Shown here in pieces: positions 13,868-56,737 of a stretch of 64,000 bases of DNA. The notes beneath the pieces are model-generated. The model saw only the letters and a list, made by a program, of their open reading frames with translations. It did no database searches and was not told the origin of the DNA. The stretch is taken from the IMG/VR virus record IMGVR_UViG_3300006033_000024, positions 1-64,000 of that record. One strand, 5' to 3'. The stretch comes from a virus. Both the position numbers and the translations under genes were made by a program. Position 1 is the stretch's first letter, and each line of letters begins with the position of its first letter.

Positions 13868-15856
13868 GTGCATGTATTAAAAAACTATCAAAGTGGGCAA
13901 AGAGCCAATAATCAACTTGAAGAAATTCCTGCGAGCGCTAAACCACTTGATCTTAATGCCACCATTAACGAACTTAAGACGTTGGTTGAATGGATGAGAG
14001 ACCACCCTTCTGGCAATGCCGGTGGTGGCGATTATGATGATAGTGCGTTACAGTCCGCAATCAGTGATTTGCAAACAGGGAAGGCAGATGTGTCTGATTT
14101 GGACTCATTTATTTCGCTCCAGACGGGTGGATCTATTTCGGGTACAAGGGCTGCTGCTATAGGGATTAATAATGAACTATCTGGCAGTGACTCTTTCGCG
14201 ACTGGTGATTTAAATATCGTTTCTGGATTAAATGCATTTGCATCTGGGTTTAACAATAAAGCAGAGGGTGCGTATTCTCATTCAGAAGGGATGCAAACTA
14301 GGGCTACGAATATTGCGTCTCATTCCGAAGGGGATCATACGAGTTCTTTTGGATACGCCGCGCATGCCGAAGGAACATTGACGTTCGCATCTGGCACCGC
14401 CGCGCATGCGGAAGGCTATGGAACCGATGCCTCTGCAAATAATGCCCACGCTGAGGGCGCTAGCACATACGCCCAAGGCGTACAATCGCATGCAGAGGGT
14501 CTTGATACGGTTGCGTATGGACAACAATCTCATGCCGAGGGCGAGGGTACGATAGCACAAGGTGAAAACCAACATGCTGGGGGTCAATATAATATTGCCA
14601 ACGGGTCGGCTAGTTCGCATAGTCCAACTGATTATGTTTGGATTATTGGAAACGGGACTGACGACGCAAATCGGTCAGATGCCGCGGCGTTACAATGGAA
14701 CGGCGTGTTAAAGGTTGTTGATTTAGAATCATTCGATGGTACCAAAGGATTACTTTTAGATACCGATAAAACAAAGTTAGACAATTTGGTTATCCCCGAT
14801 CAACTTAGTGATTTGACAGATGATGAAACTCATCGTTTGGTCACCGATACCGAAAAGTCAACGTGGAACGCAAAACAACCTGCGATGGGTTCAGATGATA
14901 ATTATGTCACAGATGCAGAAAAAGCTGCGCTACATGCACATAGCAACAAAACTGCATTAGACGCAGTTAGTGGCACCAATACGGGCGATCAAACGTTAAG
15001 TGGCTTGGGAGGTGTGGCTGCTAATGTCGCTATTACCGGTGCAACCAAAACCAAGGTGACATATGATTCAAAAGGGTTGGTTACTGGTGGATCCGATGCG
15101 ACGACTGTCGATATTGCAGATTCTGCGAATAAACGTTATGTCACCGACGCACAACTTATTGTTATAGGGAATACTTCGGGTGCGAATAGTGGGGACGAAA
15201 CCACTTCGACCATTAAAACTAAGTTGGGAATTACAACGCTTAGTGGTTCTAATACTGGTGATAACGCCGTCAACTCTTTATATAGCGGATTGGCGACGTC
15301 GAAACAAGATACATTAGTGAGTGCTACGAATATCAAAACAATCAATGGTTCGTCAATCTTAGGTGGTGGCGACTTAGTAGTTTCTGGTGGGTCTGCCCCG
15401 TTTGCTATGTATCGTTTAACCGCACCATTTTCAAATTCGACAACGACGTTGCAAGACGTTACGGGTTGGGCATTCCCTGTTACGGCAGGGAAAATATATA
15501 GGATTGAAATTATCGCCTTATATCAGACGAATACAACTACCACCGGTGGTAAACTTGGTTTTTATTTGCCAAGCGGAACTGGTGCGGTCGTTGGCTATCT
15601 TGAGGGTGGAATTTCGTCCGCAACCGTAGCGACAGAGTTAAAGGCACCGATTTACGCTATTGGTGCAAGTAACTTGGCAGGAAGTTTTTTATTAACCTCT
15701 GGAGTAAACGTTATCAATACACCCCATCATATTGATGGCTCGTTGATTTTTAATTGTGCTACATCTGGCGAGTTCCGCGCCCAATGGTCTGGCGAAGCTG
15801 CTACCGCCGCACAACTTAATACAAATAGTGTTTTATTGGTTACGGTTTTGAATTAA
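13868..15856 (+). CDS. tail fibre with SHAEG repeats
   Basis: 662 aa from a GTG start. The N-terminal helix contains LDLNATINELKTLVEWM. Residues about 90-260 hold repeated SHAEG/AHAEG/SHSEG motifs about 14-16 residues apart, as in trimeric YadA-head type beta-roll fibres. Then come NLSDLTDDETHRLVTD-like fibre shaft repeats and a C-terminal beta domain from about residue 510 that may bind the receptor. Related in design to 21475-23817. Confidence 0.88.
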   Translation: MHVLKNYQSGQRANNQLEEIPASAKPLDLNATINELKTLVEWMRDHPSGNAGGGDYDDSALQSAISDLQTGKADVSDLDSFISLQTGGSISGTRAAAIGINNELSGSDSFATGDLNIVSGLNAFASGFNNKAEGAYSHSEGMQTRATNIASHSEGDHTSSFGYAAHAEGTLTFASGTAAHAEGYGTDASANNAHAEGASTYAQGVQSHAEGLDTVAYGQQSHAEGEGTIAQGENQHAGGQYNIANGSASSHSPTDYVWIIGNGTDDANRSDAAALQWNGVLKVVDLESFDGTKGLLLDTDKTKLDNLVIPDQLSDLTDDETHRLVTDTEKSTWNAKQPAMGSDDNYVTDAEKAALHAHSNKTALDAVSGTNTGDQTLSGLGGVAANVAITGATKTKVTYDSKGLVTGGSDATTVDIADSANKRYVTDAQLIVIGNTSGANSGDETTSTIKTKLGITTLSGSNTGDNAVNSLYSGLATSKQDTLVSATNIKTINGSSILGGGDLVVSGGSAPFAMYRLTAPFSNSTTTLQDVTGWAFPVTAGKIYRIEIIALYQTNTTTTGGKLGFYLPSGTGAVVGYLEGGISSATVATELKAPIYAIGASNLAGSFLLTSGVNVINTPHHIDGSLIFNCATSGEFRAQWSGEAATAAQLNTNSVLLVTVLN

Positions 15857-25029: not shown

Positions 25030-28000
25030 TTAGCTGTTAACTTTGCGGTATGATTTCAGATACCAATTCACATATTTGCCGGATGTTTGTTTTTCCAACC
25101 AGTCCACCTTTGTGAAGATGATGTCGTACTTGCGAATCGGATTCTGATCATACACGCGACTGCTTAGCATCAGTTCGGAACGTTTGCCAGAACCTAAGCT
25201 GGACGTTTCTAACTTGTAAGCCCAAATCTTCTTCTTGTCTTTGGTTTTCATCGCCGTTATATCCACGATGACCAACTTGGTAGCATCTTCCAGTTTACCG
25301 GTCGATAGATCGACATACCCCAAGTGTTCCTTTTGGTATTGTATCTTTTCGGCAACAGATAAATCGGGTAGATCCAAAGATAGAATGTACTGACCGATTT
25401 CGGCTAGGATCTCTTGGATGTTTCCATCAATGCGATATTGTCGATCTGTTTCACGGGCGTTACGGGCGATGATGCTACGGATGATTTCGTCTTCAATGGT
25501 ATCCTTCTTGATGACCTTTGATGATCCGTACTTGGCATAATAATTATTCACTTGTAGCAATTCCGCAACATTCCCGAATTCATTGAAGAATCCGATCTTG
25601 ATCAGAATGTCAAGTTGCTTTGTGTTAATGGATGTTGTAGCAAGGTCGCGCAACAACGCAACGAAGTCTGGATATTTATTTCCATAGAACCGTTGCATTT
25701 CATCGGCGACCGATGCGTTCATATACTTAATCGATTCTAACCCTTTATAGACAGAATTCGTTTCGCGATCCATATAGTATTCAGATTTCGAATACCGGAA
25801 CTTAGGACGTTTAACCCGTATTCCATGTTTGGCAGCGTAATTCGTGACTTCAATTGTCTTGGCTTCTTTGTCGCGAAATACATTCAACGCCGTCGTAATA
25901 AATTCAAGTGGATAGTAATGTCGCAAATATCCACACGCATATCCAATGTATGAATACGCATCCGAATGATTTGACGAGAACATATAGGAACTAGCGTCTT
26001 CAACAACTTTCAAGAAAGACTGGATCACTTCGTGGGCATAATCTTTTTCATACCCATATTTCTTGTGAACGAAGTCAACGAATCGGCGTTCGATTTCCGG
26101 TAACAACTTATCGGTGCCCTTCTTTTTACTGACGGCGCGACGAACGTTGTCGGCTTCGGATCCACTATAACCACAGAACGTTGTTAGAAACTTCATAACT
26201 TGCTCTTGGAAAACACATCGACCCAACGTATCGGAAAAGAATTGATTGATTTCTGGCATGCCGTTATCGTAGATTTTACCTTCGGCAATTTCATCCCTAA
26301 AACTTGCACAACCCGGTCGCAACGCACCGTTAGCGAACGAGAACCATTTTAGATAACTAAACTGGGCGTTTTGTTCTTTAGCACGTTGTAATGTCGTTTC
26401 GCTAAAGAACTTGTTCATATACTGCGTTCCCATGGGTGAATTCCACTGGAAGATTGCGGCAGTATCCGAATGAATACTGTTCCACACTTTTTCATCTTCC
26501 AGATCAATGTTGTCCGGCGTAATCAATGGAATACCGGCTAACGCACATGTATCATTGATGACTGCGATGTTGTCAAGACCCAATATATCCATCTTGACAT
26601 AATTCAAAGCATCTAATTCTTTCATATCTAACATAGATACAGGATAGTCGCTTTGGGCGACGCTACACATTCCAATCGTTTCTTCAATGTCCAAATCGCT
26701 TAACAATACACCACTTGGATGTGAACCGATGGAAACAATCGTCCCCTGTACAATGTCTACATAGTAGAACAATATGGGATACTTTTCGCGCCATTTCGGA
26801 TCAATAAATTGTTGTTGGTTTTCATCTTCTTCGACTTCATTGGATATGGCGTCGGTCACGTCTAACGGCATTTCCAACGCACGACCAATATCCTTAATCG
26901 AACCCTTTAAAGCCAAAGTATTAAAGGTAATGATTTCGCTTGATCGTAGGTTCGATAGATTCATCTTATCTTTAAGAATGAACCCCTTGACCTTATCACG
27001 ATCTTCCGAACCATAGTCCGTGTCAATATCGGCTAACGATACGCGATCCGGATTGATGAACCGGAAAAAGTTTAGGTCAAACTTAATGCTATCCATCTTG
27101 GTGATTCCAAGAACATAGGCGATGAAGGATCCGTTGACAGATCCACGTCCTACGCCACGATGGATGTTATTCGCACGTTCCCATTGAAGTTTATAGTTTT
27201 CAAGCAACATAAACTCATGGGCGCCGGTCTTAACATAGGCGTCAAATTCAGTATCAACAACTTCGCGAATCTTAGCCTGCGTATGTACTTTGTGGATTGT
27301 CGGATGCAACTTGATAGCAGCTTCGACTTCTTCCCGAAACCTTTCAATTGGATTGTCATAAATCTGAGGATACTTATTACTACGATCAATCGTAAACGTT
27401 TCTACCATATCCGCCATACGGTTGGTATTTTCAATCGCATCAATATATATGAACGAATCGACGACACCCTGTTTTGCATAGGCATCTAACAATTCATCGT
27501 AGGTTTTAAACGTCAAATCCCAACCTTCTTCATCATCAAAGAAAACCTTTTTGGCACGTTGCAACATCACGCGACCTTCTGCGTGTTTCTCGTTTAGGGA
27601 ATGTGTGTCGCTGCCGGCAATTAATGGAATCCCATACTGTTTGCTATATTCTATCATGCGTAGATTGTATTCTTTTTGTTTGTCAACATTGTGATGTTGG
27701 ATTTCAAGAAAACACCGATCGGCATTTGCGCTCATATAATCCAACATACTTTGTTGCAGTTCGGCAGATCCACGCCCTAAGACGCCACCGATACACGCCG
27801 TCGTTAGGATAAGGTTGTCTGAAATGCCAAACAACTCTTTAAACGTAATGCGTGGCGAATAGTAATAATGTCCGTCTTCACGATTGAACGATTTACTGAC
27901 CAACCGATTCAACTCAAGAAAACCTTGGTAGTTTTTGGCAATTAAAATAAGGTGGTAGTTATCACGGATTTTTTCGTCTAAGGATTCAGTAACATAAACT

Positions 28001-28209
28001 TCCGAAGCGTGAATGTATTTTAATCCCGCTTTTTCGATTGCCTGTTTCTTTGAAAACCATCCGAATAGATTTCCATGTTCAGAAAACGCCATTGCGCCCA
28101 TGCCTAAATTTTTGGCGTATTGGATATAATCGTCAAACTTTGTTACCGAATCGCAACCCGAAACAAGGGACAAATCGGAATGAAGATGATATGGCGTATA
28201 ATTTCCCAA
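25030..28209 (-). CDS. DNA polymerase III alpha subunit, DnaE type
   Basis: 1059 aa, TTG start after AGAGGTGGTAG. An N-terminal PHP domain (HLHSDLS at about 8-14, MAFSEHGNLFG) is followed by the C-family polymerase core: GVGRGSVNGSF (about 355) and the catalytic Asp pair in LADIDTDYG, then HPSGVLLSD, DILGLDNIAVI and FQWNSPMGT. The helix-hairpin-helix and beta-binding region follow. SPbeta-like phages carry a similar polymerase. It is the phage replicase. Confidence 0.95.
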   Translation of the reverse strand: MGNYTPYHLHSDLSLVSGCDSVTKFDDYIQYAKNLGMGAMAFSEHGNLFGWFSKKQAIEKAGLKYIHASEVYVTESLDEKIRDNYHLILIAKNYQGFLELNRLVSKSFNREDGHYYYSPRITFKELFGISDNLILTTACIGGVLGRGSAELQQSMLDYMSANADRCFLEIQHHNVDKQKEYNLRMIEYSKQYGIPLIAGSDTHSLNEKHAEGRVMLQRAKKVFFDDEEGWDLTFKTYDELLDAYAKQGVVDSFIYIDAIENTNRMADMVETFTIDRSNKYPQIYDNPIERFREEVEAAIKLHPTIHKVHTQAKIREVVDTEFDAYVKTGAHEFMLLENYKLQWERANNIHRGVGRGSVNGSFIAYVLGITKMDSIKFDLNFFRFINPDRVSLADIDTDYGSEDRDKVKGFILKDKMNLSNLRSSEIITFNTLALKGSIKDIGRALEMPLDVTDAISNEVEEDENQQQFIDPKWREKYPILFYYVDIVQGTIVSIGSHPSGVLLSDLDIEETIGMCSVAQSDYPVSMLDMKELDALNYVKMDILGLDNIAVINDTCALAGIPLITPDNIDLEDEKVWNSIHSDTAAIFQWNSPMGTQYMNKFFSETTLQRAKEQNAQFSYLKWFSFANGALRPGCASFRDEIAEGKIYDNGMPEINQFFSDTLGRCVFQEQVMKFLTTFCGYSGSEADNVRRAVSKKKGTDKLLPEIERRFVDFVHKKYGYEKDYAHEVIQSFLKVVEDASSYMFSSNHSDAYSYIGYACGYLRHYYPLEFITTALNVFRDKEAKTIEVTNYAAKHGIRVKRPKFRYSKSEYYMDRETNSVYKGLESIKYMNASVADEMQRFYGNKYPDFVALLRDLATTSINTKQLDILIKIGFFNEFGNVAELLQVNNYYAKYGSSKVIKKDTIEDEIIRSIIARNARETDRQYRIDGNIQEILAEIGQYILSLDLPDLSVAEKIQYQKEHLGYVDLSTGKLEDATKLVIVDITAMKTKDKKKIWAYKLETSSLGSGKRSELMLSSRVYDQNPIRKYDIIFTKVDWLEKQTSGKYVNWYLKSYRKVNS

Positions 28210-28227: not shown

Positions 28228-30231
28228 TTATTCTGGTGTGGCACCGAAAACTTCGGCACCGTCGTCTTTGATGTTGGCTACAATCGTTCTTGCCGTATCT
28301 TGATCATACTTTATGTTGCTTTCACGCTGCCAACGATACTTAAACTCTTGCTCGCTTTGATTGCTATACAATCGCATCGTGCGTTTATCATAATACAACT
28401 TGCACTTCTTATTTGCCATTCCAGTGGGACGGTCTTTAATGATCTTGATTTCGGTATTAAACCCTTCGGGGTCAGTATCAAGACGCGTTACCCAAATCAT
28501 ACGGTGGGATAAGTTCGCCAGTTCAGACGCACCGGAAACAGAATAAATCCCCGGCGTTTCACCCTTGGCAGGCTTCTTAGGATGCGCTACCAAAACCGTG
28601 AATACATTGTACTTGTTGGTAAATGCCAGTAGTTTCTTAATGAACTTTGTCTGGCTTTGGAAACGGTCTTCGCTTTCATCTTCATTCGTGTTGACCGTCA
28701 TCAAATTGTCGATCAAGAAGACGCGAATATTATAACGTTTATGGGCGTAAACCATTTCTTTAATGATCTCATCGCCAGAAGCAGATAACGTATCTTTATC
28801 GCTAAAGTAAATAATCTTATCATCATAGTATTCTTTAATGCGTTTCTTCGCCTGTTTCGTAATCGAATATCCGGCAGGATTCCCATCCTTTTGCCAACGT
28901 CGAATGTGATCGATACCGGCAAGTGGCTTTAGGATCCAGTTTAACAACTGGGGACTTCCAAGTTCACCGGAGAAGATCATGGGCTTATACCCTTGTTCCA
29001 TCGGCGACAAAACGCAAAGTTGATTGGCGAATACCGACTTGCCACTATTCGGTTCGCCGGATACAATCGTAAAGCATCCCATCAGATTTCCGTACAGGAT
29101 TTCATCTAACGAACGAAACCCAGTGGATATTTTTTCCATGTCTTCGATTTCAATATCATCAACCCTCATCAGAAACGAAAGTTTCTCATTGGGGATTGGT
29201 TCGGCATCTTTAACTAAACGACGAATCGTATCTTCGCCACATGCCATCAAAACGCTATTCGGATCTGCTTTTGTGACAACACCCTTGAAGTATTTTGACA
29301 CACGTTCGCGTGTTTCAGTATCTACTTTAACAATACTGCACTTGGCTTCGCCAAGACGCGTCACAACGTCTTTCGCCATTTTTTGACCCGGTTCATCATC
29401 GTCCGGGAAAATGATAAACTGCTCAACCTCTTCGAAGATTTCCCAGTTATGGTCGATCCATTCAAAGCTGTTGGCGCCATTCGGAACGGCGATGGTGTTT
29501 GAGAACCCTGCTTGGACGCAAGATAATCGGTCAACTAATCCTTCAACAATAATGACGGGGGAAGTCAAGTCAAGTCGATTCATCCCGTATGGGATGGGAC
29601 AATGGCTAACCGTTTCCCCATCAGATCGTTTGCTTTGCCAAAACCATTTCAGTTCATTCTTGTTATTGTGGGGATGTGAGATCCGATACTTTGTTCCCAA
29701 ATGCGTTCCGTCAATATCAATGAATTGGAACGCGATTTCACCCTTTGTCCCCTGCATAACATTACAGAAGTCCATCGTCTGTTTGTTGATTCCACGACGT
29801 TCCAAATATTGTTCAACGATCTTGCGATCATTAAACGGTTCGTCTTCCGGGTATTTATACCCCAACATACGTTCGGACTTTGACTTCTTACTTTCTTTAA
29901 TCGTTTTGGGCGACCACTTCTCGTATTTAAAGTCTTTATCGCTTTTTGACGCCTCTTCAAACAATCGGTTGACGGCATCAAAAAAGGTAAGATTATATTT
30001 CCACATGAAGTGATCTAATATATCGTAAGTTTTACCCGTTGCAAAACATTTAAACGTGTTGCCCTCTGGAAACCACTGCATTGACGCCGTCAATTCACGC
30101 TTAAAAATTGACTTTCCTTTTAATTTTTCGGGGTTCCAATCTTCTATCTTTAAGTCATCCGCTATTATATGCGCCGCTTTCGTGCCAATAGACATTTTGG
30201 CTTCTTGTATTTTATCTTGATCAAATAACAT
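28228..30231 (-). CDS. primase-helicase (TOPRIM plus DnaB-like)
   Basis: 667 aa. The N-terminal 110 residues resemble a primase nucleic-acid binding region. A TOPRIM domain at about 205-300 has VIIVEGLVDRLS and FPDDDEPGQKMA. The RecA-like helicase follows with Walker A GEPNSGKS (about 388) and Walker B FLIDNLMTV, then a DnaB-type LVAHPKKP segment. This is the T7 gp4 arrangement, primase and replicative helicase in one chain. It lies directly upstream of the polymerase in the operon. Confidence 0.93.
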   Translation of the reverse strand: MLFDQDKIQEAKMSIGTKAAHIIADDLKIEDWNPEKLKGKSIFKRELTASMQWFPEGNTFKCFATGKTYDILDHFMWKYNLTFFDAVNRLFEEASKSDKDFKYEKWSPKTIKESKKSKSERMLGYKYPEDEPFNDRKIVEQYLERRGINKQTMDFCNVMQGTKGEIAFQFIDIDGTHLGTKYRISHPHNNKNELKWFWQSKRSDGETVSHCPIPYGMNRLDLTSPVIIVEGLVDRLSCVQAGFSNTIAVPNGANSFEWIDHNWEIFEEVEQFIIFPDDDEPGQKMAKDVVTRLGEAKCSIVKVDTETRERVSKYFKGVVTKADPNSVLMACGEDTIRRLVKDAEPIPNEKLSFLMRVDDIEIEDMEKISTGFRSLDEILYGNLMGCFTIVSGEPNSGKSVFANQLCVLSPMEQGYKPMIFSGELGSPQLLNWILKPLAGIDHIRRWQKDGNPAGYSITKQAKKRIKEYYDDKIIYFSDKDTLSASGDEIIKEMVYAHKRYNIRVFLIDNLMTVNTNEDESEDRFQSQTKFIKKLLAFTNKYNVFTVLVAHPKKPAKGETPGIYSVSGASELANLSHRMIWVTRLDTDPEGFNTEIKIIKDRPTGMANKKCKLYYDKRTMRLYSNQSEQEFKYRWQRESNIKYDQDTARTIVANIKDDGAEVFGATPE

Positions 30232-30261: not shown

Positions 30262-30918
30262 TCATTTTTGTTTGGCAGGTTTTGGACTTCTTCGCCGCCT
30301 ATCAAACTCGCCAGACAATATAGCATCAACAATTTTTTCTGGCGTATATCCAAGAGACAATTTTTTATGTACATACCAATACTCAACATTAAAATGTCGG
30401 CAAAAATCTGCCACAGTATATTTTTGATTACCAAAAACAATGATTCTATTATTTCTTCGGTTATTGTTTTGCACAGTAAGAGTTACCCATCTGCAATTAT
30501 TCGGACTGTAATCACCGTCCGTATCAATTCTGTCAATAGTCAAATCATTCTCGTAGCCGTTGTTCGCAGCCCAGTCAAAAAAGTTTTTGCGATCCAACCA
30601 TTCATCGCATATTTTAATTCCACGACCACCATAGTTGTGATATTCTTTGCAACTATGCGCATAACATCTTTTCCTCATATTATCGTAGGTTTGATACAAC
30701 CTTGATTGTCTCAGGCCGTGTGTAACAAAAGTGTCATATAATAAACAACCACAACTTCTAACCCAACTTCTTCTCAAGTCACACGTAGTAACTTCTTTGT
30801 GACCACCACAATCACAATCGCATAGCCATATTGCATTGCCATTCTTATCAGAATGTAGATATTTAATAGCTGTAAGTTTGCCAAATTTTTGTCCGGTTAA
30901 ATCAATCCGCTTGACCAT
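30262..30918 (-). CDS. HNH endonuclease (free-standing homing type)
   Basis: 218 aa. A Zn-like N-terminal part (GQKFGKLTAIKY, CDCDCGG, SCGCL) is followed by the HNH core YNNYGGRGIKI-like motif (here YHNYGGRGIKICDEW), NGYENDLTIDRID and NCRWVT, and a C-terminal NUMOD-like DNA binding part (YTVADFCRHFN). Such genes insert themselves between essential phage genes. It separates the primase-helicase from the nuclease gene. Confidence 0.9.
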   Translation of the reverse strand: MVKRIDLTGQKFGKLTAIKYLHSDKNGNAIWLCDCDCGGHKEVTTCDLRRSWVRSCGCLLYDTFVTHGLRQSRLYQTYDNMRKRCYAHSCKEYHNYGGRGIKICDEWLDRKNFFDWAANNGYENDLTIDRIDTDGDYSPNNCRWVTLTVQNNNRRNNRIIVFGNQKYTVADFCRHFNVEYWYVHKKLSLGYTPEKIVDAILSGEFDRRRRSPKPAKQK

Positions 30919-31734: not shown

Positions 31735-32208
31735 TTAGAACGGCAAGTCGTCACTATTGATGTCTAACAAAGGCCCAGTATTAGTCGAATCACCCTCGTC
31801 GGAAGGTGCCAACGCCGCCGGTTGATTGGACGGTTTCGATTGTGCGCGTGTGGTCGGTTTTGCCGAATGATCCGGCGCACTACCGGCGTTTCCACTGGTG
31901 GTAATGGCTTTAACTTCATCAACCAAGAACTTTGTAGATGTTACCGTATGTCCGTCTTTTTCGTATTTTTCAACACGGGCGCGGGCACTGACAATAATCA
32001 GATCGCCTTTTTTGGCGTACTTGCCAAGATAGTTTGCCGAATGATTCCATGCAGCAAAGTTAAGGAAAGTAACGATGTCGTCCTTATCCTTGCCTGCATA
32101 TTCGTTGATAGCGATCGAAAAGTTACATACTTCCGATTCGCCAGCTTTGCGGATTTCGGGGTCGGCAGTTAACCGACCGATGAATGAACAACTGTTATTT
32201 AGTCCCAT
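31735..32208 (-). CDS. ssb: single-stranded DNA-binding protein
   Basis: 157 aa. An OB fold begins CSFIGRLTADPEIRK and continues with VCNFSIAIN and FLNFAAWNHSANYLGKYAKKGD. A Gln/Pro/Ala-rich linker leads to an acidic tip DINSDDLPF, the tail through which SSB recruits partners. It protects ssDNA during phage replication and recombination; the neighbours are the nuclease and the Sak4-like ATPase. Confidence 0.95.
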   Translation of the reverse strand: MGLNNSCSFIGRLTADPEIRKAGESEVCNFSIAINEYAGKDKDDIVTFLNFAAWNHSANYLGKYAKKGDLIIVSARARVEKYEKDGHTVTSTKFLVDEVKAITTSGNAGSAPDHSAKPTTRAQSKPSNQPAALAPSDEGDSTNTGPLLDINSDDLPF

Positions 32209-34288: not shown

Positions 34289-35173
34289 CTACTGAAACAT
34301 TTTGTTCAGTTTTGTTGCTTCAATAATCATACGATCATCGGTATGTGCATAGCGTTGTGTGGTTGAAATATCGGAATGACCAAGTAAATCTTGAATCAAA
34401 CGGATGTCAACCCCGTTGCGCAACGCATTGGTCGCAAACGAATGTCTGAACAAATGGTTGTGAACGCGTTCCGGGTTTTTAATCCCTGCTTTGCGCGCTA
34501 AACTTTGAAGTTTACGGTTCATGGAATAATTGTCCAATTCCGTTCCTTCTCTACTTACTAAAAGATAGTCAAGTTTACTTTCGGGACGTTCAAAGTTGAA
34601 ATAACGATCAAACTCTGCCATCGTCATTGGAGGAATGAACTTCATCATTTCTTTGTTACCCTTGCCGATAACACGAACCTTGCCCCATACATTCCCATCT
34701 TCTTCAAATCGTTCGATGTCTTCATAACGCACATGCGCCAATTCGCTAAAACGCATGCCGGTGGATGCTAACCCCATTACGAACGCCCGGTCGAACGCCG
34801 AACGCGCAGCTTGGATGATCCGTTCTACTTCGTCGTCTTGTAGAAAATCCGTATAACGCCGACCGACTTTAACCAATTCCTTATCGGCAGGATTTTCATC
34901 CAAAGCCACTTTCAACGTCTTCATCAGAAACTCATAGAAAACTTTGATGGCCGTGATATAGGTGTTCATCGAACTATCTGAAACGCCATGATCATGCAAG
35001 TACGATTTGTAGTAAATGAAATCTTCCTTCGTAACTTCCGTCAACGGTTTGTCAACAAACTCTGCCAACTTACGCACACTACGTTCATAGTATTCGACCG
35101 TATTCGGCGATACCTTATCATTATTCAGTTTCTTTACAAATAACGCGATTTGTTTCTGGTTGATTTCTAACAT
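34289..35173 (-). CDS. tyrosine recombinase, XerC/D-like
   Basis: 294 aa. N-terminal SAM-like core-binding domain (TVEYYERSVRKLAEFV), then the catalytic domain with STGMRFSELAHVRYEDI (Arg), KVRVIGKGNKEMM (Lys turn), HLFRHSFATNAL (His, Arg), LLGHSDISTTQRYAHT (His and the Tyr nucleophile). All catalytic residues are present, so it should be active. It has its own strong promoter, unlike its neighbours. SPbeta's master regulator YopR also has this fold, so a DNA-binding regulator role is a second possibility. Confidence 0.93.
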   Translation of the reverse strand: MLEINQKQIALFVKKLNNDKVSPNTVEYYERSVRKLAEFVDKPLTEVTKEDFIYYKSYLHDHGVSDSSMNTYITAIKVFYEFLMKTLKVALDENPADKELVKVGRRYTDFLQDDEVERIIQAARSAFDRAFVMGLASTGMRFSELAHVRYEDIERFEEDGNVWGKVRVIGKGNKEMMKFIPPMTMAEFDRYFNFERPESKLDYLLVSREGTELDNYSMNRKLQSLARKAGIKNPERVHNHLFRHSFATNALRNGVDIRLIQDLLGHSDISTTQRYAHTDDRMIIEATKLNKMFQ

Positions 35174-35197: not shown

Positions 35198-35226
35198 ATT
35201 ATATCATAATGTAGGGATTATGTCAA
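35198..35226 (-). promoter_or_regulatory. consensus sigma-A promoter of the XerC/D-like gene
   Basis: TTGACA, 17-base spacer, TATAAT on the - strand. The TGA stop of the kinase-sigma fusion lies within the -35 box. CCTACAT occurs twice, once in the spacer and once just after the -10 box, a possible direct-repeat operator. Confidence 0.92.
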
Positions 35227-36344
35227 CTACTAAGAATCTCTTTTGCCATTTTTGTATCACGGATTGCCGCCAAAACCATTTTACGGATCCGTTCATGCGA
35301 ACATCCACTTTCTTTGGCTAAGGCACGATAACTTTTATTCTCATAAAAGTGTCCGATTGCCCAATCGCGAATCGTATCATCATCAATCTGGAAGATGATG
35401 GTTTGTGCTGCGTCTTTCGCGCAGTTCTTGTAAAACTCTATCCTTGCATCATACCGTTCATCCGGTATGGCATCTAACAAGGTATCGGTCGTATCGCAAT
35501 GCAATGGCGCGTCTAATTGAATCGCATCTGCCAACAGATCTAAACGTTGTTTCAACGTCCGGTAAGTGGCAATGATTTGATTGCGAATACACATGATGGC
35601 GTAAGTCGAAAACTTCAACCCACGTTCCTTATCAAAGGATCGAACAGCATTGATCAACCCGATGCAACCCACTTGGTAAACGTCGTCGTATTCATCTAAA
35701 AATTCCAGCTTGTAATGCTTGATGGCAAAGTGAACTAACGATAGGTTACTTCGTACTACGGATTCTTCTTTTGGATCCACTAAACAAGCCACAAAGTCCG
35801 TGGTCAATTCGTCCAACGTCGTATTCTTGCCGTTGTACAAAACATAATCAACTTCACCATAAATGAAATCAAAGTCAAACACTTTTGAATCGTCTTGTTG
35901 ACGTCGATCCCATTCAATCTGATCAAACCCCGGACGTTGTTGCGCACGGAATCTCCGTACTTCTTCCGGTGAATCAATAAAGAACGATACGACACGATCG
36001 CCGTAGTGTTCAACAAACCCACGCAGTCCAATAGGATCTAACACAATGACACATGGTGCGTCTGGGATGTCTTTAAATGCACATCCATAATACCATGTTG
36101 CCGGAATACCACCGACCAACGTATGATAGTCGCGATGTTCGATCAATTCGTTATTCTCAATCATTTTCAAAAACGTTTCGTTATCCTTGAAATGATACGC
36201 CCTGCCATCAATCTCTGATGGTCGCTTGGGGCGCGTGGTTGTGGATACGATGACCTCACAACCCAACACCCTTGCGATTTTCCATTGTAGGGTATCTTTC
36301 CCCGACGAACTCATACCGCATAAAACAATTATTTTATTTTCCAT
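35223..36344 (-). CDS. guanylate kinase-sigma factor fusion protein
   Basis: 373 aa in one uninterrupted frame. Residues 1-190 are a guanylate-kinase fold: P-loop GMSSSGKD at about 9-16, VSTTTRPKRPSEIDGRAYHF with the GMP-binding Arg and Tyr, FLKMIENNELIEH, and a LID-like RRFRAQQRPG. Residues about 195-265 are sigma-70 region 2 (DEYDDVYQVGCIGLINAV, GLKFSTYAIMCIRNQI), and about 325-365 a region 4 helix-turn-helix (SYRALAKESGCSHERIRKM). The kinase motifs look intact. The fusion could couple nucleotide supply to phage transcription; I know of no described case. Confidence 0.9.
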   Translation of the reverse strand: MENKIIVLCGMSSSGKDTLQWKIARVLGCEVIVSTTTRPKRPSEIDGRAYHFKDNETFLKMIENNELIEHRDYHTLVGGIPATWYYGCAFKDIPDAPCVIVLDPIGLRGFVEHYGDRVVSFFIDSPEEVRRFRAQQRPGFDQIEWDRRQQDDSKVFDFDFIYGEVDYVLYNGKNTTLDELTTDFVACLVDPKEESVVRSNLSLVHFAIKHYKLEFLDEYDDVYQVGCIGLINAVRSFDKERGLKFSTYAIMCIRNQIIATYRTLKQRLDLLADAIQLDAPLHCDTTDTLLDAIPDERYDARIEFYKNCAKDAAQTIIFQIDDDTIRDWAIGHFYENKSYRALAKESGCSHERIRKMVLAAIRDTKMAKEILSS

Positions 36345-40184: not shown

Positions 40185-41568
40185 TGTCCAACCCTCCTAT
40201 TTGTTTGGATACCTCATAAATCCATTCTGCTTTGCTAAAATCGTTTTCCATAAACCACTTTTTGCAAACTCGACCATATCCGGCAGATATTGCTTCCGAA
40301 ATGTTCCAATCATCTTCGCCTAATACCGACCCTTTTAAAACTGATAGGGCGTGTAAACTCATGCCAAACTCTTTTGATAACGCAATAAATCCATCGTGCG
40401 TTTTAGGGAAGAAATTCGCTCTAAGATTTTTCTGATTCCCACCACCCGTCAATAAAAGATAAAAGTTTTCTATAAACACATCGTAAGACACTATCTTGTT
40501 CGACGTTTTATCTTTATTCACGAATTTATGTGCTACCTGTGGGCGATGACGTTCGACCATCAAAAATCTTAAGTCTGAATATATAGAGTCCCACTTCTCT
40601 TTTCTTTGTTCTTCATATTCTTCATCGAAATCTAACTTGATATTCTTGGCAATGTATACATCCTTTAACCAAAACATACTTGCCTTGTATTTGTTAGGCT
40701 CAAAGTCTTTCAATGTCTTTAATTGATTTGAGACATCGCCACCAAACGGACAAGCAAAGCACCCAGTTCGTTGCATACCATATTTTGTGTACGCTTCAGA
40801 TAGTGGCATATTGGTTGCACTGATAAAACCTTCTACATCTTGATCAGACCAATCAATAATAGGTGATTTAACTATATATTCACCAACAATGCGTGTACAA
40901 ATCTTGTGGTTCGCGTTTTCTCTTCGTTTGGCTTGGAACTTTCTTGCGCCACCCTCTGCACTTCGTTCACCACTCATATAGCCCTTCATACCATTTTCTT
41001 TTGCAAATGTTTTAAATGGCTTCTTCTTTAAAATGTCGCAACACTCTGCACTGATCTTAATGTCAAATATAGGGCTAAAAACGTGCATATCTTTATCTGC
41101 AAGTCCCCATGTTGGGGATCTTTTTGCACCCGGCTCCTCAACAAGCTGCCGACGGATCTTTGTGGTTGGTTTTGATTGCGTTTGGCGTAGTGCGTGATCT
41201 CTCATCTTGGAAATCATTGGTTTGCCCTTATTCTTTAATACCCAATCAAATGAAACCTCTGGCGTTACAACGACAACACCATCATAGTAGTTATCCTTAG
41301 TCCATTGAACAAAATTATATATCGCGTCTAACTCAATCCCTGTATTGCTAAATACAGCAGGGATTGAATTGTATGGAATTGTATACAGTTGTTCGCACAT
41401 TTTAATCAACGTTAAAACAACCGTACTATCTTTACCACCGGAAAAACTTAGGTAACATTTCCCATCCGTTTCCTTAAACAAATCCTCAATACGGTGTTGT
41501 GCTTCGGCGATTTTTAATTGTAGACGATCGCTTATATTAATTTTGGGGTCTAATTTTACTTCAATCAA
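40177..41568 (-). CDS. PAPS-reductase-like ATP pyrophosphatase, copy 1
   Basis: 463 aa. The TTG at 41568 overlaps the stop of copy 2 and has GGGGG upstream; it makes the length equal to copy 2, so I prefer it to an ORF start at 41661. PP-loop SGGKDSTVVL near residue 40, SNTGIELDAIYNFVQW, a CCDILKKKPF pair, and CFACPFGGD. These fit the CysH/DndC (DUF3440-like) group of ATP-using sulfur transfer enzymes. The Cys residues could hold an Fe-S cluster. Confidence 0.85.
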   Translation of the reverse strand: MIEVKLDPKINISDRLQLKIAEAQHRIEDLFKETDGKCYLSFSGGKDSTVVLTLIKMCEQLYTIPYNSIPAVFSNTGIELDAIYNFVQWTKDNYYDGVVVVTPEVSFDWVLKNKGKPMISKMRDHALRQTQSKPTTKIRRQLVEEPGAKRSPTWGLADKDMHVFSPIFDIKISAECCDILKKKPFKTFAKENGMKGYMSGERSAEGGARKFQAKRRENANHKICTRIVGEYIVKSPIIDWSDQDVEGFISATNMPLSEAYTKYGMQRTGCFACPFGGDVSNQLKTLKDFEPNKYKASMFWLKDVYIAKNIKLDFDEEYEEQRKEKWDSIYSDLRFLMVERHRPQVAHKFVNKDKTSNKIVSYDVFIENFYLLLTGGGNQKNLRANFFPKTHDGFIALSKEFGMSLHALSVLKGSVLGEDDWNISEAISAGYGRVCKKWFMENDFSKAEWIYEVSKQIGGLDNE

Positions 41569-42931
41569 ATTGATTTTCCCCCATTTCCTTAGAAATCTCA
41601 TAAGCCCATTCTGCGCGTGTATGTTTATATACGTTAAACCACTTAACGCAGATTGCGTCATAACTTAAGTTAATCGCACCCACAAGGTCAACACTAAACA
41701 AATTAAGACCATCGCCAGATTGTTTATTTTTTAATATTCTAAGGCCTATACAAAAATCTTTAACCAACCGAACAAACCCCACTTGGTCGTCAGTGTACAA
41801 ATAATCATGTAGGCTGCGGTTATTTGCGTTTAATGCTAACTGCAAATAGAAACGGTTGATATATTCCTCAAAAGATACCAACTCGCGATTAATCTTATCT
41901 CTGTTGTAATATTTCTCTGATTTATCCGGTCTGTTTTCTACTAGCATTTCGTAGCGCAGATCAGAATATACTGCATCCCATTTTTTAACGCGATCTGATT
42001 CATAATCTTCATCAAACTCCAACTTTGTATTTTGCGCTATATAAACATCTTTTAACCAAAACATCGTCGCCTTATACTTGTTGGGTTCGTAATCATGCAA
42101 AACTTTTAAATTCGTCTTAAGATCTCTTGCAAATGGGCAACCGATACAACCGGTTCGCTTTAATCCGTACACCTCATATGCCTCTGACAACGGAACCTTA
42201 TATTCTTCAATGTATTCTGTAATCAAATCATCAGACCAGTCAATAATTGGAAGTTTTACGGTATATTTACCTTTAGTCTTGGTGCATATTTTACCACCGT
42301 TTTTCATCCTCATGTGTGTAGAAGTTTCTCTAACGCCACCTTCTGCCATGCGTTCACCAAGAATATAACCCAAAACATCGTGTTCCTTTTGATATTTAAC
42401 AAAGGGCTTCTTTTTGAGGTAGTTGCAACACTTAGAACTAACTTTAATGTCAAATAATGGACTCATAATATGTAAGTCTTTTTCGCCAATTTTTAACTTA
42501 GCCGTATAAGACTTTTCGTTCGTCATCATCAACCCTTTGTATCCTACCGTCTGATCATTATATTTCTTCTGATAACCCTGTATTAAATCACTTTTAAACT
42601 TAGACTTAATCGGTTTACCCTCTTTTTCAAGAACGTAAGAAAAACTAACATCCGGGCGAATAATCTGTACATTCCCATAATAGTTTTCAGACACCCATTT
42701 AACAAACTTTTCGGTGGCATCCAATTCAATCCCAGTATTACTAAAAACGGCAGGGATCGAATTAGGAATGATTGTATACGCTTCTTCGCACTGCTTTATC
42801 AACGATAACAACACCATACTATCTTTCCCACCACTAAAGGCTAAATAGCATTTGCCTTTGGTTTCGTGGTATAAATCTTCAATTCGATGTTGTGCCTCTA
42901 ATACTTTCAGTTCTAGTTCTTGAGAAGCCAT
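41561..42931 (-). CDS. PAPS-reductase-like ATP pyrophosphatase, copy 2
   Basis: 456 aa from ATG 42931 (GAAAGG upstream). The same design as copy 1: SGGKDSMVLLSLI PP-loop, SNTGIELDATEKF, CCNYLKKKPF, GERMAEGGVRE, GCIGCPFARD, then PNKYKATMFWLKDVY. The two are tandem paralogues of nearly equal length and moderate identity. Known relatives reduce PAPS or activate a substrate for sulfur insertion; the substrate here is unknown. Confidence 0.87.
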   Translation of the reverse strand: MASQELELKVLEAQHRIEDLYHETKGKCYLAFSGGKDSMVLLSLIKQCEEAYTIIPNSIPAVFSNTGIELDATEKFVKWVSENYYGNVQIIRPDVSFSYVLEKEGKPIKSKFKSDLIQGYQKKYNDQTVGYKGLMMTNEKSYTAKLKIGEKDLHIMSPLFDIKVSSKCCNYLKKKPFVKYQKEHDVLGYILGERMAEGGVRETSTHMRMKNGGKICTKTKGKYTVKLPIIDWSDDLITEYIEEYKVPLSEAYEVYGLKRTGCIGCPFARDLKTNLKVLHDYEPNKYKATMFWLKDVYIAQNTKLEFDEDYESDRVKKWDAVYSDLRYEMLVENRPDKSEKYYNRDKINRELVSFEEYINRFYLQLALNANNRSLHDYLYTDDQVGFVRLVKDFCIGLRILKNKQSGDGLNLFSVDLVGAINLSYDAICVKWFNVYKHTRAEWAYEISKEMGENQFD

Positions 42932-54510: not shown

Positions 54511-54539
54511 ATTATAACATAAAAACCCGTTTATTGCAA
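54511..54539 (-). promoter_or_regulatory. sigma-A-like promoter inside a terminator
   Basis: - strand TTGCAA, 17-base spacer, TATAAT. The -35 box lies in the loop of the terminator hairpin 54520-54544, so termination of the upstream unit and initiation of the next share the same bases. Confidence 0.75.
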
Positions 54540-54544
54540 CGGGT
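54520..54544 (-). terminator. Rho-independent terminator overlapping a stop codon
   Basis: - strand stem ACCCGTT/AACGGGT followed by TTTT. The stem contains the TAA stop of the 54531-54794 gene. Confidence 0.75.
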
Positions 54545-54794
54545 CAATTTTCTGCGCTCGCGGACTAACGATGGTCGCTGCGAACAGCTCAAACCCATTT
54601 TCAAATCTATCACGAGTCACTTCGTATTTTAATCCTGTAGACGGATCTGTTAAGATAACCAAATCTTGTTCGTGACGCAAACGAATATCAATTGAATCAA
54701 CGCGTAGCATCGTTCCAGACTTAATTACAGACCTCTGGGCGAAGATTACGCCGTTTGCAGTATAAATATACCCCTCTTTAATTTCGCGTGTCAT
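54531..54794 (-). CDS. 87-aa hypothetical protein
   Basis: Starts MTREIKEGYIYTANGVIFAQ. All-beta pattern with SVIKSGTMLRVDSIDIRL and DPSTGLKYEVTRDRF. No family recognised. Last gene of its unit: its stop codon lies in the terminator stem. Confidence 0.75.
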   Translation of the reverse strand: MTREIKEGYIYTANGVIFAQRSVIKSGTMLRVDSIDIRLRHEQDLVILTDPSTGLKYEVTRDRFENGFELFAATIVSPRAQKIDPLQ

Positions 54795-55511: not shown

Positions 55512-55700
55512 TTATTTTCCCTCTGTATAGATAATGATGGTTTCGATCCAATGGTTCTTGTGACCAGACAAGCCCGACATTACCGGATTATCTATGTTCT
55601 TACGTTCCAAAGATACGACTTCAATATCTGGATGCTTTTCAAACCAAGCGTTAATCGCTTCTTCGGTAGCGTCGATCATAATTTTTAACTTATATTTCAT
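55512..55700 (-). CDS. 62-aa hypothetical protein
   Basis: ATG after GAGGCGAA gives MKYKLKIMIDATEEAINAW; an extension to 55736 is less well supported. Ferredoxin-like beta-alpha-beta pattern ending WIETIIIYTEGK. No family recognised. The leader is the repeat-rich block 55701-56001. Confidence 0.72.
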   Translation of the reverse strand: MKYKLKIMIDATEEAINAWFEKHPDIEVVSLERKNIDNPVMSGLSGHKNHWIETIIIYTEGK

Positions 55701-56001
55701 TTCGCCTCGTGCGTACACTTTACATTTTGTACGCATAAATCTGCAACGATACCCTAATCATCGTTGTATTTTGCAACGATTTTTGCAACGGTAAATCTAT
55801 CGTTGCAAAAAAGTGTAGAATTACGCATTTATCTGCAATGGGATAAACCCTATTTAATAGGGATTATATTGCACATTAACCCTATTTAATAGGGGTTATA
55901 GGCAATTAAATGCCGATTATAGGCAATTAAATGCCGATTATACCCATATGGGTGCAATACAGAACATTGATACGCATATTATACCCTATCGGATATAATT
56001 A
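55701..56001. repeat. repeat-dense non-coding block
   Basis: Three repeat types lie side by side. GCAACGAT or its complement occurs five times between 55742 and 55807. The palindrome CCCTATTTAATAGGG occurs at 55848-55862 and 55880-55894, 32 bp apart. A 21-bp tandem unit fills 55899-55919 and 55920-55940, each holding GGCAATTAAATGCC. On the - strand most units are bordered by TATAAT-like boxes. Looks like an iteron-type origin or a multi-operator promoter region. Confidence 0.75.
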
Positions 56002-56238
56002 TTACTTAAACCAATTCTCCGGATTTTCACTCTCGTATCCACACGCGATATACATTTCAATAATTTTCTTTGCGTCTGGATCATAGTTAATGTTCTGATA
56101 AACTTCACCGATCGTTTTACACATATAAGATAGCATAACGATTAGATCCGACGTCGCTTTCGTGCTATGCGCAAATGGTTTCTTTTCACCGGGCAAATAC
56201 CATTCAACATCGCCCTTGGTTTGGCTATTTTTGGACAT
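56002..56238 (-). CDS. 78-aa hypothetical protein
   Basis: Start at MSKNSQTKGDVEWYLPG, which overlaps the upstream membrane protein gene by 14 bases. Helical with MCKTIGEVYQNINYD and a polar end (GYESENPENWFK). No family recognised. Its 3' end borders the repeat block. Confidence 0.7.
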   Translation of the reverse strand: MSKNSQTKGDVEWYLPGEKKPFAHSTKATSDLIVMLSYMCKTIGEVYQNINYDPDAKKIIEMYIACGYESENPENWFK

Positions 56239-56674
56239 ATTTATTTGCCTTTGATTTAACCCACGGACGAATTTCGGTCTTGAACAAGAAATACAGTAGA
56301 TCAGTCGCATTACCGACAAACACCATCGCCCAATACCATTGATAGGCATCTGCATTACTTATTCCCAACAAAGTTGCAATCGGAAACACCGGCAACGCAA
56401 GAACGAATTCAATGATTATAAAGAAGAAAGCCAAAACATCGTGCCAATATTGACCAAACATCTTAACTGTAGCGTCAAACGAATCAGAATATAGTAACTG
56501 ATATGTATTAGCGTAAATGATCAAAATGTGCAAAACCATAAGTGGCAAAGACACAACTGGCGCACCAATCCATTTGAAAAACCAATAAGCAAGTACCAAG
56601 TCAACCAGATATGAAATAAATTTCCATACCAAATTCACCCTTTTATTCTTAAACATATGTATTTCTTTTTTCAT
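56225..56674 (-). CDS. 149-aa multi-pass membrane protein
   Basis: ATG after GGAGGGGTT. Four hydrophobic segments: about residues 15-35 (FISYLVDLVLAYWFFKW), 40-58 (LPLMVLHILIIYA), 83-105 (VLAFFFIIIEFVLALPVF) and 115-135. No signal peptide or catalytic motif. Could be a superinfection-exclusion or lysis-related protein, which is only a guess from topology. Confidence 0.75.
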   Translation of the reverse strand: MKKEIHMFKNKRVNLVWKFISYLVDLVLAYWFFKWIGAPVVSLPLMVLHILIIYANTYQLLYSDSFDATVKMFGQYWHDVLAFFFIIIEFVLALPVFPIATLLGISNADAYQWYWAMVFVGNATDLLYFLFKTEIRPWVKSKANKYVQK

Positions 56675-56685
56675 AACCCCTCCAT

Positions 56686-56737
56686 AAGCAACCATATCAA
56701 GTTGCTTTTCGTTATAGCAACCAATTTAAGTTGCTAT
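56686..56737 (-). promoter_or_regulatory. two tandem hairpins before the membrane protein gene
   Basis: On the - strand ATAGCAAC/GTTGCTAT and AAGCAAC/GTTGCTT follow each other, each with an eight-base loop. The first contains the TAG stop of the upstream gene. They lie just before GGAGGGG. Confidence 0.65.

Follow-up and report, generated by a model that had tools for sequence, protein, structure and literature searches.

The noncoding block at 55701-56001 fills precisely the gap between two small minus-strand genes, in the right arm of a phage genome that from ~44 kb onward carries chiefly small minus-strand genes without an assigned role. The first-pass annotation had described 300 bp without a gene at this position, and this description was borne out, as one flanking minus-strand open reading frame (ORF) ends at 56002 and the other starts at 55700. 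The window, i.e., the whole stretch of DNA analyzed (64,000 nucleotides), belongs to a 70,158-base virus record, of which it covers bases 1-64000. A second record is identical to it over 38.3 kb (window positions 1-38317) and adds 23.4 kb leftward; with both records joined, the known genome totals 93.6 kb and is incomplete. Since the second record reaches window positions 1-38317 only, it neither confirms nor varies the block, whose source is a single assembled contig. The features of the block and its neighbors are as follows.

55512-55700, minus strand: downstream 62-aa gene, no convincing family (ORF call and homology searches)
55701-56001, no strand: whole noncoding repeat block, equal to the intergenic gap (ORF calls, repeat density, and shuffles)
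55730-55746, plus strand: TACGCATAAATCTGCAA, copy 1
55741-55750, plus strand: family A unit CTGCAACGAT
55760-55769, minus strand: family A unit ATACAACGAT
55771-55780, plus strand: family A unit TTGCAACGAT
55783-55792, plus strand: family A unit TTGCAACGGT, left arm of the inverted repeat 55780-55811
55799-55808, minus strand: family A unit TTGCAACGAT, right arm of the inverted repeat 55780-55811
55822-55838, plus strand: TACGCATTTATCTGCAA, copy 2
55848-55862, no strand: dyad CCCTATTTAATAGGG, copy 1, center 55855 (repeat/palindrome search)
55863-55868, minus strand: TATAAT box, the sole box with a dyad centered near -31
55880-55894, no strand: dyad CCCTATTTAATAGGG, copy 2, center 55887 (repeat/palindrome search)
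55895-55900, minus strand: TATAAC box
55896-55942, no strand: 21-bp tandem repeat, 2.2 copies, unit TTATAGGCAATTAAATGCCGA (tandem-repeat search)
55901-55914, no strand: imperfect dyad GGCAATTAAATGCC, copy 1, center 55907.5, inside a 21-bp unit
55916-55921, minus strand: TATAAT box
55922-55935, no strand: imperfect dyad GGCAATTAAATGCC, copy 2, center 55928.5, inside a 21-bp unit
55937-55942, minus strand: TATAAT box
55943-55952, no strand: dyad CCCATATGGG, a perfect 12-bp dyad when extended to ACCCATATGGGT (55942-55953), center 55947.5
55971-55977, plus strand: TACGCAT, third copy
55978-55983, minus strand: TATAAT box
55984-55992, no strand: imperfect dyad CCCTATCGG, center 55988
56002-56238, minus strand: upstream 78-aa gene with a single distant match, in Eggerthella phage LE2-3 (homology search)

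The repeat block is real and far above chance expectation. Its 8-mer redundancy was 46, versus a mean of 2.9 and a maximum of 13 in dinucleotide shuffles (n = 2000); the second-densest 300-bp stretch of the contig reached 15. Between 55730 and 55840, the TTGCAACGAT family occurs in both orientations, together with two copies of TACGCATnnATCTGCAA. The count of five GCAACGAT units given earlier for the block was reached only when one mismatch was allowed: exact copies number three (55743 and 55773 on the plus strand and 55799 on the minus strand), and the remaining two are the one-mismatch variants ACAACGAT (55760, minus strand) and GCAACGGT (55785, plus strand). In shuffles, the count of this family was 0.2 (maximum, 2), versus five with at most one mismatch in the block.

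Both the two identical 15-bp palindromes and the two 21-bp tandem units of the first-pass annotation were recovered, the former as CCCTATTTAATAGGG at 55848-55862 and 55880-55894 and the latter as the tandem repeat with the highest score in the window (100% matches over 55896-55942). With at most 2 mismatches, CCCTATTTAATAGGG gave 4 strand-hits, versus 0.14 expected in shuffles. Absent from that annotation were the dyads CCCATATGGG, CCCTATCGG, and GGCAATTAAATGCC (the last present once per 21-bp unit), an approximate helical phasing, and the occurrence of TACGCAT three times. The six dyads have centers between 55855 and 55988, spaced 32, 20.5, 21, 19, and 40.5 bp apart, that is, ~2 to 4 helical turns and near whole turns; the phasing of the centers reached a P value of ~0.01 to 0.02 at a best period of 10.25, in a post hoc test picked after the sites had been seen. 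Arm spacing is unequal among the dyads, so a single dimeric protein would fit some of them better than others. The AT-richness ascribed to the block was only moderate overall (34.9% GC versus 36.7% in other right-arm gaps), although in duplex stability 55842-55942 ranks with the lowest 1.3% of 100-bp stretches in the contig; this low stability falls inside the dyad part of the block and not in a separate tract.

TATAAT boxes on the minus strand were likewise found as described, at 55983, 55942, 55921, and 55868, with a TATAAC at 55900, so that five ATTATA/GTTATA boxes lie between the dyads at spacings of 32, 21, 21, and 41 bp. The regulated promoter that had been read into these repeated -10-like boxes was not supported, however, and an array of sigma-A promoters was rejected, as all five boxes lack both a -35 element at 16 to 18 bp from the -10 (best match, 3/6) and a TGn. 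The boxes scored up to ~6 on a sigma-A matrix, and the best promoter-like site of any kind in the block scored 8.6, a value equaled or beaten in 32% of 310-bp windows. On the same matrix, the clear promoters of the right arm (69692, 66812, 63750, 62395, 60970, 54516, 46374, and 43889) scored 11 to 16 and have the form TTGnnn-17-TATAAT, mostly with TGn. The boxes seem to belong to the repeat unit itself, and the box at 55868, with a dyad near -31, is a possible candidate for an activator-dependent promoter. Elsewhere in this arm, a strong TTGCAA-17-TGnTATAAT promoter at 54511-54545 on the minus strand has its -35 within the loop of a terminator-like hairpin.

The repeats of the block were found nowhere else in the known 93.6 kb apart from a GCAAC-n8-GTTGC pair at 56688-56734, where two such inverted repeats, 29 bp apart and with half-sites resembling those of the block, lie in the leader of the gene at 56225-56660. 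No match to the block sequence was obtained in phage collections, viral contigs, or 36 records with related polymerases, and the flanking proteins, searched against the same sets, yielded one distant homologue only, that of the 78-aa protein in Eggerthella phage LE2-3, in which an unrelated hairpin, long and with a T-run, lies in the gap after the homologue. When equivalent blocks were sought in 12 relatives, the strong signals were mostly coding repeats or contig-end repeats; two relatives (G005 and G017) have noncoding repeat blocks, with sequences that differ from 55701-56001. The G005 block (L171:14280-14600) contains at least 8 GCAATAACC/GGTTATTGT units (repeats at 14375-14554), some of them 11 bp apart, and adjoins the TTGACT-17-TATACT promoter of a 127-aa DUF6291/HTH gene.

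The virus, a tailed phage, carries tape-measure and tail genes. It encodes a replication set consisting of a DnaE-type polymerase (25030-28209), whose nearest sequences are from phages of Bacillota (44 to 53% identity), a primase-helicase (28228-30231), and a single-stranded-DNA-binding protein (SSB; 31735-32208), together with a PD-(D/E)XK nuclease, a tyrosine recombinase (34289-35173), and a sigma-like protein. Several other loci were recorded. A single minus-strand ORF at 35223-36344 joins a guanylate-kinase-like N terminus to a sigma-70 region 2, an unusual fusion. Between the helicase and nuclease genes, the minus-strand ORF at 30262-30918 resembles by eye an inserted HNH-type endonuclease and had no match in Pfam. 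A skipping-rope RNA (RF02924, 52.8 bits) at 293-389 on the plus strand adjoins two tRNA genes, and a duplication at a PAPS-reductase-like gene (40612-41097 versus 41999-42484, 68 to 78% identity) has its copy at 41999-42484 where no long ORF was called.

Because the regularly spaced repeats are unique to this gap in the known genome, the gap is probably where a viral protein docks. We consider it probable that the block is a cis-acting, multisite protein-binding array serving as an origin or an operator, and dyads with 0 to 1 base at the center would suit DNA-bound dimers better than RNA hairpins. Within this frame, we tentatively read the block as a putative iteron-type origin of DNA replication, which is slightly favored over an operator array by the single copy, the helical phasing, and the low duplex stability. 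Judged by the presence of repeats, the block would resemble iteron origins in having clustered copies, and the lack of these repeats in the rest of the 93.6 kb is as expected for one origin rather than a regulon. The replication genes of the phage itself, the lack of a good promoter in the block, and the semi-palindromic iterons of the PLE1 origin (PMC8263062), as a precedent, also speak for this reading. The origin suggested earlier thus draws on anatomy (single-copy array, phased dyads, low stability), whereas skew, gene content, and homology add no independent support to it. GC skew, one of the checks proposed for that suggestion, revealed no origin-like switch, its sign being unchanged across the block. 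The coding-strand GC3 skew (minus-strand genes, 24 to 70 kb) rises at ~54.2 kb, parting conserved from small early genes; a GC3 step as a signal at the block was rejected, since change-point analysis places it at ~54.2 kb, where it is tied to gene class, and its direction does not fit an origin. No match was found for the initiator genes DnaA (C-terminal), RepA_N, or Rep_3 in the known part of this incomplete genome; this, the unequal arm spacing of the dyads, and the lack of the block in the relatives searched count against an origin. In the proposed mechanism, a phage-encoded initiator, probably among the orphan early proteins, would bind the dyads on one helix face, bend the DNA and melt its AT-rich part, and recruit the primase-helicase, SSB, and DnaE polymerase; the TATAAT boxes would then be AT-rich edges of binding sites and not promoters. 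That the origin is of a new sequence type, combining two repeat families with an initiator that has an unknown fold and is encoded by one of the orphan early genes, appears rather unlikely.

The dyad repeats are equally compatible with an array of operators for a phage transcription regulator, which may include a middle-type promoter in which a -10 and an activator-bound dyad replace the -35; we regard this as possible, at clearly less than even chances. Its best candidate combines the TATAAT at 55868-55863 with the dyad at 55880-55894 near -31, with a predicted start at ~55856 (minus strand) that would drive the 62-aa gene. All five boxes are oriented toward the downstream gene, and T4 middle promoters provide a precedent for a -10 without a -35 (PMC2988021), but only one of the five boxes has a dyad at the required distance, and the best standard promoter of the block is ordinary (8.6, reached by 32% of windows). 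The sigma-70 region 2 protein of the phage speaks for this reading, but an HTH_3 repressor gene was not found in the known part of the genome. The GCAATAACC/GGTTATTGT repeats of the distant relative G005 lie beside the promoter of a small HTH gene, and the GCAAC-n8-GTTGC pair recurs in a neighboring gene's leader, but block sites are not reused at other promoters of the known genome.

The repeats might instead act in RNA, a read-through transcript forming a hairpin chain and controlling the downstream gene at the level of stability, processing, or translation. The minus strand does fold well (-94.2 kcal/mol, z = -5.8), with a hairpin (TGCGTACA/TGTACGCA) directly ahead of the start codon, but the plus strand folds just as well (z = -7.05), which palindromic DNA would predict, and dyad centers of 0 to 1 nucleotide cannot form RNA loops. 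Rfam returned no family at gathering score, so that a known structured RNA was rejected, and there is no terminator with a U-tract in the minus direction; we consider action in RNA very doubtful. An intrinsic terminator array was also rejected, T-runs being absent from the perfect hairpins or located on the wrong side. That the block serves recombination, partition, or packaging, or is a functionless by-product of local duplications, is unlikely as well. TACGCAT...CCCTA is present three times, which points to local duplication, but drift is not expected to yield perfect dyads with helical spacing; the encoded tyrosine recombinase lies 20 kb from the block, and ParA and ParB families had no match in the known part of the genome, where a parS/ParB centromere was therefore rejected.

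Replication start in large lytic-type phages that encode a DnaE polymerase of their own is poorly mapped, and one compact candidate site would, in a genome of this type, permit a direct search for its initiator. Were the block an operator array instead, it would indicate a hitherto unknown regulator of the phage in its early region.

Among known systems, the origin of phage lambda has near-identical O-protein iterons located inside gene O. The block resembles it in having imperfect palindromes lined up at intervals of about two helical turns beside AT-rich DNA but differs in lying in a gap, in having three dyad types, and in having no O-like gene nearby. PeSL cassettes of T4-type phages, reportedly described by Arbiol et al. 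in 2010, pair a complete early promoter with a stem-loop downstream of it. The block shares with them repeats that have -10 boxes and stem-loops and lie in a hypervariable early region, whereas complete early promoters, present in PeSLs, are lacking in the block, which on this definition speaks against a PeSL cassette. T4 middle promoters combine a -10 with a MotA box centered at -30 and have no -35 (PMC2988021). The TATAAT boxes of the block similarly lack a -35, and one has a dyad centered near -31, but the MotA box is neither palindromic nor arranged in tandem arrays, and four of the five boxes have no dyad at that distance; a T4-like middle promoter array was rejected, an activator box near -30 being found upstream of one -10 in five. 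The PLE1 origin of Vibrio cholerae has semi-palindromic iterons of ~30 bp bound by RepA (PMC8263062). It differs in having three such iterons and a RepA_N protein, which was not found in the known part of the phage genome here, where the protein-binding array is putative; what the two share is a short, noncoding intergenic block with several semi-palindromic repeats.
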